Below, piece after piece: positions 29,085 through 34,339 of a stretch of 64,000 bases of DNA (position 1 is the stretch's first letter; every line of letters begins with the position of its first letter). A program made the position numbers and the translations under genes. The notes under the pieces were generated by a model. That model had not been told where the DNA came from. It searched no databases and saw nothing but the letters and a program-made list of their open reading frames with translations. Origin of the DNA: Gemmatimonadota bacterium (lineage in GTDB: Bacteria; JAAXHH01); assembly GCA_009838645.1 (NCBI GenBank), contig VXRC01000038.1, positions 1 to 64,000 of the forward strand, read 5' to 3'.

Positions 29085-30446
29085 TTACTTACCCAGGGCG
29101 CCGTCCAGCGTCGCCTGGGCGATCAGGTAATCATACTGCGCGCCGGCCAGATCGGATTTCGCCCGGACCAGGGCTTCCTGTGCCGTAAACACTTCCAGCA
29201 GCGTGCCGGAACCTACCCGGTACCGTTCTTCCGCCAGCCGGAGACTCTCCTCCGAGGCCACGATGTTGTCGTTACTGAGCGTGATGACTTCCCGGGCCGT
29301 TTCCAGGTCGAGCAAGGCGTTTCGGATGGTCAGCGAGGTCGTCCTCCGCGTCTGGCGCAGCGTTTCCTCCGCGATCAACTGCTGCGCCTGCGCCTGCGAG
29401 ATCTCGGCATAGGTCTGCGTGCCGTTCAGGATCGGCATGCTGAGATTCAGATTAAAGGACAGGCGCCAGTTTTTGTCATAGGTGCCGTAGACGTCCTGGA
29501 AACGCACGCCCGACCGGCTGTAACCTACTGAGCCCGATATCGTCGGCCAGAGTCCGCCCCGAGCCAACTTGGTTCCGATCATCGCGGAACGGATGCCGCC
29601 CTCGTCCCGCTGGATGGCGGGATTGGTCAGATCGGCCATCCGAAGCGCATCCGTTAAGGCCATGGACACCGTCGTATCGAGCGCACCGCCTTCCAAAGGA
29701 TCTATGATCTCGAATACATCGCCGGAACCGATACCCATGACGTTGGCCAGCGCGGCCCGGGCCTGCAGTACGTCCTTCTCGCGGTTATGCAAAGTGATCC
29801 GCGCCGCGCCAAGTTGAGCCGTGGTCTGAAGCACCTCCACGCGGGCCACGGAACCGATCTCGTACATACTCTGGGTCCGCCGAAGTTGTTCCTCGTTAAG
29901 GCGGACGTTTTCTTCTTGCACTTCCTTGAGCCGCTGGGCTCGCAGCAAGCCGTAGTAACCGGTCTTCACGTCAACGGTGATCTGGTTTTCGGTACTGACC
30001 TGCCCCAGTTTCTCGTTGTCTACTAGCTGCCGGTCACGCCGGATCGCGTTCCAGTTCTGGCCGCCATTGTACAGATTCATGCGCAGGAAGACGTTGTTGC
30101 CGTAATTCGTCCGGGTGCTGCCCGGCGACTCCCGGATCAACTCGCCCTCGAGGAAGAGTTGGGAATCGCCTGAAGTCGTCCGATTCGCGTTCATCAGGTT
30201 GGCGGTCAACTGTGGCATGACACCCGTATAAGAACCCAGAACGGCCGCTTGTCGGACTTCCACCTGTTTCCGGGCGATCTCGATCCGGGGATTGTTCCGC
30301 ATTGCTATCTGAATACACTGCTCCAGCGTGTACGGACCGCCCGCGGTCGCGGCGGCCCCGGAGGACTGCCCGAACGCCGCTTCTCCCCGGGTGAACAGGC
30401 CGGCCGCGATCAGGACGGCGCAGCCGATGGCATGTCGCGTCTTCAT
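29085..30446 (-). CDS. TolC-family outer membrane efflux protein
   Basis: A 453-residue outer-membrane channel. A signal peptide (residues 1 to about 26, ending GEAAFGQ) precedes two TolC repeats of long helices; LEQCIQIAMRNNPRIEIARKQ begins the first, and SLRLAEERYRVGSGTLLEVF is the hallmark of the second. It would form the outer duct of an efflux or secretion system, but no inner-membrane or adaptor partner is adjacent. AAGGAG lies before the ATG at 30446. Confidence 0.92.
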   Translation of the reverse strand: MKTRHAIGCAVLIAAGLFTRGEAAFGQSSGAAATAGGPYTLEQCIQIAMRNNPRIEIARKQVEVRQAAVLGSYTGVMPQLTANLMNANRTTSGDSQLFLEGELIRESPGSTRTNYGNNVFLRMNLYNGGQNWNAIRRDRQLVDNEKLGQVSTENQITVDVKTGYYGLLRAQRLKEVQEENVRLNEEQLRRTQSMYEIGSVARVEVLQTTAQLGAARITLHNREKDVLQARAALANVMGIGSGDVFEIIDPLEGGALDTTVSMALTDALRMADLTNPAIQRDEGGIRSAMIGTKLARGGLWPTISGSVGYSRSGVRFQDVYGTYDKNWRLSFNLNLSMPILNGTQTYAEISQAQAQQLIAEETLRQTRRTTSLTIRNALLDLETAREVITLSNDNIVASEESLRLAEERYRVGSGTLLEVFTAQEALVRAKSDLAGAQYDYLIAQATLDGALGK

Positions 30447-30620: not shown

Positions 30621-31760
30621 TCACATGCGGCGACGCCAGAGTATCCACAGGCCGACCGCGAGGAGGCCCGCGCCCGCACCGATCCACGAGGAGTAGCCCG
30701 TGGGAGCGGGGGATGCGGTGACCGTCGGCTTGATCGTGCAGAGCGAAGTGAGCAGTTCGATGGATTCGCTTACGGCCACGTCACCGATCAGGGTGAAGAG
30801 CTTTCCGTCGAAATGGCGCCGCAGAATGGAATAGGGGCCTCGTTCCCAGACACGAACGTCGCCATGCAATTCGGGCGTACCCCTGGGAGACCGGTGCGAC
30901 GCTTCAGAGGAAGCGATCCGCTGGAAGAGCGAGATGCGTGAGAGGCCGTCGCTGTACATGAAATGCACGAGCGGCTGGCCGTGGTGCTGCATGACGCGGC
31001 GTTGCTGCAGGATGAACCCCGGTGGAACGTAGACCGGGGCGTTCAACTTGAAATCCGCTTCCTTCTGTACTTCGCTGATGGAACCGCAGGCAATGACCTG
31101 GTTGAGTTCGACGGACTTGCCCTTCCATTCTTCCGTATCAAAGAGGTCCGGTGAAATCCGCGGGTCCTGTTCGAATTCCGTCAGGAAGACTTCCTCGACC
31201 AGCACGCCCGCCTCGTTCCGTTCTTCCGTGCGCATCACGAGGCCCGTCTCCTCGTCGATCCACGCCGTCATGGTCATCCTTCCGGGATGGCGGGGCTTGA
31301 AGGCCAGGACGGCCACCGGACGGTCGAGAATCCGATCGGCGCCGGCGATCTCGAGGTCGTAGTTGGTCTGGAGCAGGTCGAGACTGCTGAACTCCAGGTT
31401 CATGTCGAGCACGTTCGAGTTCGACTGGCGGCGATGCGAGTAGGACAGCGAATCCCCCGAAGTGGTACGCCGGTATATGTCATGGTCGACGCGGATAATG
31501 ATCTCGCGGATCCGGCCTTCGGCATCGGGGATGTCTATGCGGTCCCGGTCAGGACGCTGATGGGTGATGATCTGGACGTAACGGGCGGTATCCCCTTCCG
31601 CGCTGAACCGCTGTTTCGTGAGGGTGGCGCGGTAGCTCACCAGGGCCGGGGCTTCCATGATCTTCTGATAGGTGATGTCCGGATCGACGCCGCGGGCCGG
31701 AGCGGTCATCGCGATACACGCCGTCGTGACGAAACAAAGGAATACAGGCCGTAACCGCAT
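30621..31760 (-). CDS. RseB/MucB-like sigma-factor regulatory protein
   Basis: A 379-residue exported protein with a signal peptide (MRLRPVFLCFVTTACIAM..., cut near PARG) and an N-terminal LolA-like beta domain (ALVSYRATLTKQRF ... MTAWIDEETGLVMRTEE). It also has a second domain (DFKLNAPVYVPPGFIL ... VHFMYSDGLSRISLF) that matches RseB/MucB. RseB shields the anti-sigma factor from cleavage. Unlike E. coli RseB, this protein ends in a membrane helix and WRRRM, so it is probably membrane-bound. It lies 10 bases after the anti-sigma gene. Confidence 0.83.
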   Translation of the reverse strand: MRLRPVFLCFVTTACIAMTAPARGVDPDITYQKIMEAPALVSYRATLTKQRFSAEGDTARYVQIITHQRPDRDRIDIPDAEGRIREIIIRVDHDIYRRTTSGDSLSYSHRRQSNSNVLDMNLEFSSLDLLQTNYDLEIAGADRILDRPVAVLAFKPRHPGRMTMTAWIDEETGLVMRTEERNEAGVLVEEVFLTEFEQDPRISPDLFDTEEWKGKSVELNQVIACGSISEVQKEADFKLNAPVYVPPGFILQQRRVMQHHGQPLVHFMYSDGLSRISLFQRIASSEASHRSPRGTPELHGDVRVWERGPYSILRRHFDGKLFTLIGDVAVSESIELLTSLCTIKPTVTASPAPTGYSSWIGAGAGLLAVGLWILWRRRM

Positions 31761-31770
31761 CTCGTACCAC

Positions 31771-32262
31771 CTATTCCTTGTAGTTGACCATGACGGAACC
31801 CAGGGTACCGCTGGTAAACACGCTCTGGTCCTCGATAAGGGCGTGTTCCTGCAGGATGAAGAACATATCGTCTTCCGAAAGCGTGCGCTGGACGGACGGG
31901 GGCTCGACCGGCTGGATCGACTGCCAGATAAGCCCTCCCGCCACCAGCAACAGCACGGCCGCCGCCGCGATGAACCGGCCGGGCTGCTCGCGAGCCGGCG
32001 CGTCCCTTCCCTTCATGCCCGGCACCATATGGGCATGCGTCGTGCGCTCGAGCACCGCGGTCTGGACTTCCGCCACCGCGACCGCCTCGGGTTTCTTCGG
32101 TCGGCAGCAGCGCAACATGCCGCGGACGGACTGCAATCCGCGCAGTTCCCGTGCGCAATCGGGGCAGGATTCGATATGGCGCGCAATCTCGGCGACTTCC
32201 TCGTTGCCGCACATGCGCTCCAGGTATCGGGTAAGCCGCTTCTTTATCTCGTTGCAGTTCAT
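31771..32262 (-). CDS. Zinc-finger anti-sigma factor
   Basis: A 163-residue membrane protein. The N-terminal anti-sigma zinc-binding domain has the HIESCPDC (HxxxCxxC) motif near residues 29-36, after MNCNEIKKRLTRYLE. A single membrane helix lies near residues 94-110 (FIAAAAVLLLVAGGLIW), with a periplasmic tail. It should hold the ECF sigma factor whose gene ends 9 bases upstream and be watched over by the RseB-like protein downstream. Confidence 0.88.
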   Translation of the reverse strand: MNCNEIKKRLTRYLERMCGNEEVAEIARHIESCPDCARELRGLQSVRGMLRCCRPKKPEAVAVAEVQTAVLERTTHAHMVPGMKGRDAPAREQPGRFIAAAAVLLLVAGGLIWQSIQPVEPPSVQRTLSEDDMFFILQEHALIEDQSVFTSGTLGSVMVNYKE

Positions 32263-32271
32263 GGCGCGTTC

Positions 32272-32946
32272 CTATAGATCAAGGTATCCGGCCAGTCGCT
32301 TGGACAGCACGCGCTTCAACTTGAGCCGTCCGTGATGCAGCCGGGACATCACCGTACCCTCGGGACACTGGAGAATTTCCGCGATCTGCCTGTGCGAGAG
32401 GCCTTCCAGGTCGAACAGCACGACAACGGTCCTGTGCCGTTCCGACAGGGTATCCAGCGCGGCCATGATAGACCGCTTCAATTCATCGCTTTCCAGCACC
32501 TCGTGCGGGTTCTTCTCGGAAGAGGGCAGATTGGAAACCAGAAACTGTTGGCCGGCGCCGCCGTTCCGCGAGCCGTAATCCGTAAAGGAGAACATGCGGC
32601 GTCGGGCTTCCCGCTTGCGGAAGTTGATGCACTTGTTGATCAATATGCGGTACAGCCAGGTCGAAAACCTGTACTGCGTATTGAACCGCTCCCGCGTCCT
32701 GAATACTTCGAGGAACGCGTCCTGGACGAGGTCGCGCGCGTCATCGTGACTCGCAAGCATCTGGTATGCCACGGAATAGGCCTTCTCGCTGTAGCGCCTC
32801 GTCATTTCGTCGAAGGCCGGGCCGTCACCCGCTTTGGTCCGTTCCATCAACCTGCGTTCTTCCTCGCGCCGGTCTTCGCCTGCGCCGCGCGCAGCCGGTT
32901 TTGTCCGTCCTTCGACCGAATGCACGTTCTTGACGGTGTTCATCCA
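32272..32946 (-). CDS. ECF-family RNA polymerase sigma factor (RpoE-like)
   Basis: Region 2 has the DARDLVQDAFLEVFRTRERF and FSTWLYRILINKCINFRKRE motifs. Region 4 has LSERHRTVVVLFDLEGLSHR and a helix-turn-helix (QIAEILQCPEGTVMSRLHHG). The start is uncertain. The frame is open to an ATG at 33051, but that stretch has no ribosome site; I used the ATG at 32946 (224 residues), with GGGAGG about 12 bases upstream. A start at 32847 would also fit the core domain. It lies between the HU-TPR gene and its anti-sigma factor and probably controls envelope genes. Confidence 0.88.
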   Translation of the reverse strand, partial: WMNTVKNVHSVEGRTKPAARGAGEDRREEERRLMERTKAGDGPAFDEMTRRYSEKAYSVAYQMLASHDDARDLVQDAFLEVFRTRERFNTQYRFSTWLYRILINKCINFRKREARRRMFSFTDYGSRNGGAGQQFLVSNLPSSEKNPHEVLESDELKRSIMAALDTLSERHRTVVVLFDLEGLSHRQIAEILQCPEGTVMSRLHHGRLKLKRVLSKRLAGYLDL

Positions 32947-33063
32947 GTTAAAGACCCTCCCGATCCTTACCCTTTCCTGGCCATTATTTAAACCCGTATA
33001 CATATTTGGGTTCGTTATCTTCAACAATTCAGCCTGACCAGTACCCTTCATTGGTATCGAAAA

Positions 33064-34041
33064 TCAGACCGGGCCGATTTCGTTGGATTTCCGATACATC
33101 TCGAGCGCCTTGTCGGCCTGTTTGCTTTTGTCGTAGATCGTGCCGAGATACCGATACGCCTGCTCGTTGTTCGGGTCATGGCGAAGCAGGGCTTCGAAGT
33201 GCTCGATCGCTTCCGTGTGCTTCTCCACGTGACAGTAAGCCTTGCCTAGTTGCAGGTGCACTTCCGCTTTCGTCCGGTCCACGTCCAGCGCGCGGGAAAG
33301 CACCCTGATCGCAGCGTCGTAGGTACCTATGGTGATGTAGAGCACACCGAGCATATAGCAGGCCCGGTAGAAATACGGGTCGTATTCCAGGACGCGAAGC
33401 AGGTCGGTCCTGGCATCTTCGTATTGTCCCATCTCCACGAACAGCTCCGCCCGGTCTACCAGCGTGTCCAGGTGGCCGGGATCGTTTCCCAGCGCGCGGT
33501 TGTAGTGTTCGAGAGCGGTTTCCTGGGCGCCGAGGCGAAAGAACATCCTGCCCAGGCTGCCCGTCGCGGTGGCATGTCCAGGTTGCCGTTCGAGTATACG
33601 CTTGTACTGCTGGATCGCCTGTTCGATTTTGCCTTTGTTCGCAAGGACTTCAGCCCTGTTCATCATGGCCGATAAATCGTCGGATCGATCTTTGGGCGTC
33701 TCTTCGACCTGTTGTTTCACCGGGTCGACGGCCACCGGCCCGGTTTGTTCCTCGGAAACGGGAGACTGCTGCGCGACCATGTCCTTTAACGTATCGAAGG
33801 GCATGAAGTGAGGGATGTGGCGGTCGTTCAGGCGCAATTCCACGTTGGTATTCAGGTCGCGGGCCGTGCGTGCTTTCCTGACTTTCACGTTGAAGGCGCC
33901 GAAACGGTGCAGATTCACCCGTTCGTCCCGGTGCATTGCCTCGGTAACCTCCGACAGGAATCCGTTCAGCACGACTCTTACCTTGTGCCTGGATACCTGT
34001 AGATCGGATGCCACTTCTTTTACAAGCGAATCTCTGTTCAT
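33064..34041 (-). CDS. HU/IHF-like DNA-binding domain fused to TPR repeats
   Basis: A 325-residue two-part protein. Residues 1 to about 90 match the HU/IHF fold: LVKEVASDL, FLSEVTEAM, RVNLHRFGAFNVKVRKAR and a final PFDTLKDMV. The DNA-inserting arm is recognisable but altered (HIPHFMPF in place of the usual NP-containing tip). After a linker of about 30 residues, residues 124-318 hold about six tetratricopeptide repeats (for example AIQQYKRILERQPGHATA, ALEHYNRALGNDPGHLDT, AIEHFEALLRHDPNNEQA). The ATG at 34041 has CGGAG five bases upstream. It heads the sigma/anti-sigma/RseB run. The pairing suggests a DNA-bound protein scaffold; its role is unknown. Confidence 0.85.
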   Translation of the reverse strand: MNRDSLVKEVASDLQVSRHKVRVVLNGFLSEVTEAMHRDERVNLHRFGAFNVKVRKARTARDLNTNVELRLNDRHIPHFMPFDTLKDMVAQQSPVSEEQTGPVAVDPVKQQVEETPKDRSDDLSAMMNRAEVLANKGKIEQAIQQYKRILERQPGHATATGSLGRMFFRLGAQETALEHYNRALGNDPGHLDTLVDRAELFVEMGQYEDARTDLLRVLEYDPYFYRACYMLGVLYITIGTYDAAIRVLSRALDVDRTKAEVHLQLGKAYCHVEKHTEAIEHFEALLRHDPNNEQAYRYLGTIYDKSKQADKALEMYRKSNEIGPV

Positions 34042-34080
34042 GATACTCCGATCACGCCAGGGCGAAGCCGCGAGAGGTTC

Positions 34081-34125
34081 CGAAGTGCCCGCTTCCGAAG
34101 TGCCCGCTTCCATAGTGCCCGTTCC
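34081..34125. repeat. 15-bp tandem repeat upstream of the HU-TPR gene
   Basis: Two exact copies of CGAAGTGCCCGCTTC and a third with three changes lie end to end in what should be the leader of the HU-TPR operon, 40-84 bases before its ATG. Confidence 0.8.
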
Positions 34126-34261
34126 CGCGGATCGTCGGCCGCCCAACGACGGCATACGCCGGTAAGGTTACACGGCAATTACCGGTGAGATTATCCGGTG
34201 GCCGGGCACGCGAGCGCTTGCCTGAATCGATTGACTGTGAGGTGAATCTGTCGTGACTCCG

Positions 34262-34290
34262 AAAATCGGCCGTTACCGGCCGCATGTCAA
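34262..34290 (-). promoter_or_regulatory. Candidate promoter of the HU-TPR/sigma operon with a palindromic spacer
   Basis: TTGACA (34290-34285) is followed after 17 bases by GATTTT (34267-34262) on the minus strand. The spacer carries the inverted repeat CGGCCG-N4-CGGCCG (34267-34282), a plausible operator. The leader to the HU-TPR ATG would be about 215 bases. I see no coding sequence in 34042-34405. Confidence 0.4.
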
Positions 34291-34339
34291 GCAAGAATGA
34301 ACGGTACGCGCACATTTGGCCGCCGGTCGGACGCCGGAC

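Follow-up and report, generated by a model that had tools for sequence, protein, structure and literature searches.

In its usual form HU does no more than bend DNA. In a 64,000-nucleotide stretch of Gemmatimonadota DNA (hereafter the window) a gene was noticed that appears to join an HU/IHF-type domain to a series of TPR repeats, in front of an ECF sigma-factor locus. This raises two questions: is such a protein genuine, and what would an HU that carries a TPR array do at that particular place? Our analysis shows that HU-TPR is real and conserved, a variant within the HU family and not a system of a new kind. For its function we propose a tentative reading, given below together with the alternatives. 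The features on which the argument rests are collected in Table 1.

Table 1. Positions of HU-TPR, its parts and the neighbouring features in the window
Feature	Position	Strand	Basis or remark
HU-TPR fusion gene	33064..34041	-	325 aa plus stop codon
HU/IHF domain, residues 1-92	33766..34041	-	Pfam PF00216, model, Foldseek, alignments
Arm tip TARDLNTNVE, residues 59-68	33838..33867	-	Aligned to stand-alone HUs from this phylum
Linker, residues 93-121	33679..33765	-	Omega about 0.6; model pLDDT below 50
Six TPRs, residues 122-325	33067..33678	-	Pfam TPR models, AlphaFold2, structure likeness
Promoter-like block upstream of HU-TPR, TTCTTGCTTGACAT plus GATTTT-like bases	34262..34297	-	Conservation
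Promoter-like element GAAGATA-N14-GTATAC before sigma	32996..33022	-	Conserved among congeners
ECF sigma factor	32272..32943	-	PF04542, PF08281; likely start 32943 (MNTVKNVHSVEG), supported by alignment
zf-HC2 anti-sigma factor	31771..32262	-	Pfam; HxxxCxxC (HIESCPDC); one hydrophobic membrane-like stretch by eye
RseB-like protein with signal-like N-terminal stretch	30621..31760	-	PF03888
TolC-family outer-membrane protein	29085..30446	-	Pfam; conserved neighbourhood

One intact frame with an HU domain and six TPRs

The preliminary description had placed the gene correctly, at 33064-34041, and had given it a ribosome site of its own. The gene lies on the minus strand, and a ribosome-site-like GGAG indeed lies 5' of the ATG and is present in most congeners. 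Upstream the frame stays open as far as 34155. The homologues align from the ATG at 34041 and not from this extension, and the N-terminus of the protein reads MNRDSLVKEV.

An intact HU/IHF domain joined to about six TPRs, as claimed from the letters, is what both profiles and models recover. Pfam PF00216 (Bac_DNA_binding) matches residues 1-89 with an E-value of 7.7e-20 (71.4 bits against a cut-off of 22.4), and it also matches the members from the two more distant genomes, G013 and G014. When the full protein is modelled with AlphaFold2 (14-row alignment; all structure models are single chains) the HU arm is poorly confident; modelled alone (21-row alignment), the HU part reaches a pLDDT of 89 and displays the HU order of elements. 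In Foldseek this model matches HU and IHF chains at a TM of 0.82-0.85, including those of the Anabaena HU-DNA (1p71) and IHF-DNA (1ihf) complexes, for which the TM is about 0.84. Given that the profile and the modelled fold agree, the HU part is not a chance match. For the second half of the protein, many Pfam TPR models match residues 122-324 (TPR_1 with 107.8 bits), and AlphaFold2 on the same 14-row alignment yields twelve helices, equal to six TPRs, over residues 123-322 at a pLDDT of about 95. The helices follow the pattern of the TPR superfamily, pairs in tandem with each pair spanning about 34 residues, and the structure resembles those of consensus TPR, OGT and MamA.

The linker between the two domains is predicted to be disordered, and length differences among the members are mainly found here. 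Median dN/dS within the genus (Nei-Gojobori, own script, congeners only) amounts to 0.25 in the HU part and 0.23 in the TPR part, against 0.60 in the linker: both domains are under purifying selection, the linker much less so.

It could be objected that the HU match arose by chance, or that the fusion stems from a frameshift or an assembly artefact and is split in, or missing from, other assemblies. The same stop-free frame is however present in 14 genomes, without a single split or frameshifted homologue among them, and these intact copies rule out a frameshift or chimera. Together with the modelled HU fold and the purifying selection this leaves the objection practically no probability; the fusion is neither chance nor an artefact of assembly.

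Spread and origin of the fusion

The set searched contains 16 genomes of the window's phylum, and 14 of these, covering three genera and two families, encode the full-length fusion. Twelve (including the window's own) belong to the window's genus, where the other eleven copies are 66-95% identical to that of the window; the remaining two come from another genus of the same family (G013, 42% identity) and from another family of the same order (G014, 37%). G012 and G015 yielded no copy; here the sigma genes lie about 360 bases and 2 bases, respectively, from a contig end, so that absence of HU-TPR from these genomes is not established.

Outside the phylum we found no match spanning both HU and TPR in 368 genomes drawn from some 250 families, either with the full alignment (about five candidates scored per genome) or with the HU part alone (none among the matches listed); a search of this depth may overlook an unrelated fusion. 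No HU-TPR fusion was found on viral contigs either. Six HU matches with long open frames (L100-L105) were rejected as fusions, since each turned out to be a single HU whose 5' stretch is open. The arrangement had been put forward as undescribed, and in the literature searched no such fusion was found.

Each half does have relatives of its own. Stand-alone HU genes are also present in the genomes with HU-TPR (four in most), and among the four paralogues G000:C50 is the closest to the HU part, with 35% identity. In other phyla there are TPR-only proteins (e.g. G073:C1:2343715-2344341) whose TPR array scores 138-203 bits in the best cases (203 for G073, 138-161 for the others) and whose last repeat is similar; unlike HU-TPR, they have no HU domain. 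Those examined lie in unrelated gene settings. No HU gene, which would support a split pair, is found near them, and the stretches examined around them contain no relatives of the sigma, anti-sigma or RseB genes. The likeliest origin, we infer, is the joining of a copied HU gene, closest in sequence to the G000:C50 paralogue, to a TPR gene in an ancestor of the order.

For G073, the only genome of its phylum in the set, the gene row around the best TPR-only relative (L071:8644-9537, minus strand) resembles, by eye, uppS - TPR - cdsA - dxr - rseP.

The HU arm and its changed tip

The preliminary description regarded HIPHFMPF as an altered HU tip. That the tip is altered stands, but its location does not: in the alignment HIPHFMPF (residues 75-82) lies past the arm and corresponds to VPxFxPxx of ordinary HU. 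The actual tip, RNPxT(G/S) in the stand-alone HUs of the phylum, has become RD(L/F)N(T/S/A/I)N in all fusions. Position 63 holds another hydrophobic residue, leucine or phenylalanine, in 14/14 fusions against a proline in 9/9 aligned stand-alone HUs of the same phylum, and the preceding N62 is an aspartate in all 14, whereas the nine stand-alone HUs keep RNP. The fusions consequently lack the intercalating tip proline that is the mark of DNA-kinking HU/IHF proteins. TF1 of phage SPO1 carries a phenylalanine in a comparable tip position. The DNA-kinking role of Pro63 is taken from work on PG0121, an HU of Porphyromonas gingivalis to which we return below (PMC3969353).

Other residues are strictly kept. 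F47, G48, F50, R55, R58 and R61 show no variation among the 14 fusions, and K86 is, like the three arginines, invariant across two families. The HU part has a pI of 9.8-11, and the TPR part is acidic. At +4 to +6, the HU part has a lower net charge than most of the aligned stand-alone HUs (+8 to +9; a single one has +3).

Given the lost proline, the aspartate at position 62 and the lowered charge, it might be argued that DNA binding was given up and that the HU part serves only as a dimerisation module, making the protein a dimeric TPR scaffold. Invariance of R55, R58, R61 and K86 across two families would be unexpected if DNA contact had been abandoned, and the HU part still has a pI near 10, which makes this explanation rather unlikely. 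Because the three arginines are invariant, the DNA-bound scaffold suggested earlier stays the best reading; as far as can be judged from the alignment, the HU part would have kept DNA contact with altered bending. The tip change forms a natural test of the role of the kinking proline.

Compared with the HU/IHF family as a whole (PF00216; Anabaena HU 1p71, IHF 1ihf), HU-TPR shares the profile, the fold, the FGxF core motif and the arm arginines; it differs by a tip RD(L/F)NxN instead of RNPxTG and by the C-terminal TPR array. HUs with long C-terminal extensions rich in charged residues are described as HU_acti_C in Actinobacteria and HU_bacL in Bacteroidetes (PMC5683647). These are alike in having a long C-terminal part, which in HU-TPR is a folded TPR array rather than a charged-rich tail. 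HU-HIG (PF18291) is likewise an HU-superfamily domain fused to another module, though the partner modules differ; its profile stays below the cut-off (19.2 against 26.2 bits) and does so in one outgroup member only.

The neighbouring sigma locus and a possible role

An ECF sigma factor, a zinc-finger anti-sigma factor and an RseB-like protein had been named as the neighbours of HU-TPR, and Pfam agrees. Both sigma regions 2 and 4 are matched (PF04542 and PF08281, respectively). The longest sigma frame (32272-33051) begins 36 codons too early; we place the start at 32943 because the alignment favours it and congeners are frameshifted in the extra stretch of the longer frame. Compared with the N- and C-terminal domains of RseB, the RseB-like protein exceeds the cut-off of PF03888 with 54.5 bits, and PF17188 reaches 29.2 bits, slightly under its cut-off of 30.1. 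With an ECF sigma, a membrane-type anti-sigma and an RseB-like protein in the same order, the locus resembles the RpoE-RseA-RseB envelope-stress locus; here HU-TPR is found upstream and TolC downstream, and the anti-sigma is of the zf-HC2 type.

That homologues would always be found next to an ECF sigma and anti-sigma pair held wherever the locus could be read at length: in each of these genomes sigma, anti-sigma, RseB and TolC lie downstream of HU-TPR, across three genera and two families. Within the genus, gene order is conserved well beyond the locus, so that only the order in G013 and G014 carries weight for the link with sigma. In both, a PorV-like gene is followed by HU-TPR, by a gene for a 418-449 aa protein and then by sigma.

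The gap between HU-TPR and sigma measures 120 nt in every congener and holds GAAGATA-N14 or N15-GTATAC in 12/12 congeners, which looks like a candidate promoter for sigma. In G012, G013 and G014 a similar element, TGAA(G/T)GTTTT followed by TGTATACT, stands immediately before sigma. Upstream of HU-TPR itself, TTCTTGCTTGACAT is invariant in 12/12 congeners, and this block is unlike the element before sigma. A consensus promoter scan called neither of the two. A genome-wide search with the exact pattern of the pre-sigma element returned three matches (one is the site itself and two are explicable by chance), and therefore no regulon is drawn. On the coding strand no terminator-like site was found between HU-TPR and sigma, so read-through into sigma is possible.

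In G013 and G014, HU-TPR abuts or overlaps the PorV-like and 418-449 aa genes, not sigma. The gene for the 418-449 aa protein, which has no Pfam match above cut-off, is absent from the window's entire genus; from this absence and the order in the two outgroups, HU-TPR may originally have formed one unit with the PorV-like and 418-449 aa genes, ahead of the sigma unit. The earlier claim that HU-TPR heads the operon and adds to sigma control is thus upheld in its steady place upstream of sigma, and weakened by the conserved promoter-like element in between and the other partners in G013 and G014. The C-terminal end of the 418-449 aa protein (L031:6966-8222 and L032:6763-8112, both minus strand) is conserved and also occurs in G012.

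Taken together, the reading we favour, to which we assign a probability of roughly 40%, is that of a nucleoid-associated adaptor, in which an HU dimer would hold DNA and the TPR arms would recruit a partner. The HU part would form a dimer whose arms grip the DNA, probably kinking it less than ordinary HU does because the intercalating proline is replaced by leucine or phenylalanine beside an aspartate. The flexible linker would then allow the dimer, with its two arms of six TPRs each, to bring a protein partner to the DNA. Most likely the genes of the sigma locus or the envelope would be acted on, since HU-TPR is always encoded beside an envelope-stress ECF sigma locus. In favour of this adaptor are the HU homology and fold, the invariant arm arginines, the basic HU part, the six confident TPRs, the purifying selection, the fixed place upstream of the sigma locus, the possible read-through and the precedent of PG0121. 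Against it count the lower net charge than in most stand-alone HUs, the loss of the kinking proline, the separate conserved promoter-like elements and the fact that HU-TPR in G013 and G014 does not abut sigma.

The precedent concerns an operon-borne HU, the loss of which lowers capsule transcription (PMC3969353). PG0121 is encoded with, and acts on, a local operon, and HU-TPR is likewise encoded beside a local locus; that PG0121 regulates its own operon makes local action by HU-TPR reasonable. In contrast to HU-TPR, PG0121 is an ordinary HU with Pro63 present and no TPR (PMC3969353).

Gene order makes a role in sigma control plausible. Nonetheless, HU-TPR could be a general DNA-bound TPR adaptor without such a role, its adjacency to sigma being merely inherited gene order. 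This would fit the own, dissimilar promoter-like elements of HU-TPR and sigma, the different direct neighbours in the outgroups and the far-reaching synteny of the genus, through which adjacency there tells little. It fits less well with the observation that the other genus and the other family also keep HU-TPR immediately ahead of sigma, anti-sigma, RseB and TolC, although the genes farther upstream are different there, and we consider it somewhat unlikely. A more far-reaching form of the favoured adaptor, namely a new kind of bacterial chromatin adaptor in which an HU dimer with altered, non-kinking arms and attached TPR arms recruits a protein (perhaps sigma or anti-sigma) near its own locus and so joins nucleoid structure to sigma control, appears improbable to us. 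A conserved HU with a protein-recruiting array and without the kinking proline would amount to a bacterial architectural protein through which partners reach the DNA; should it be linked to the sigma locus next to it, envelope-stress control would gain a nucleoid layer.

Between the conserved upstream block and the start of HU-TPR, at 34070-34130, the window contains short tandem copies like GAAGTGCCCGCTTCC. The length of this repeat spacer varies among the congeners, and in G009 and G004 it is nearly gone.
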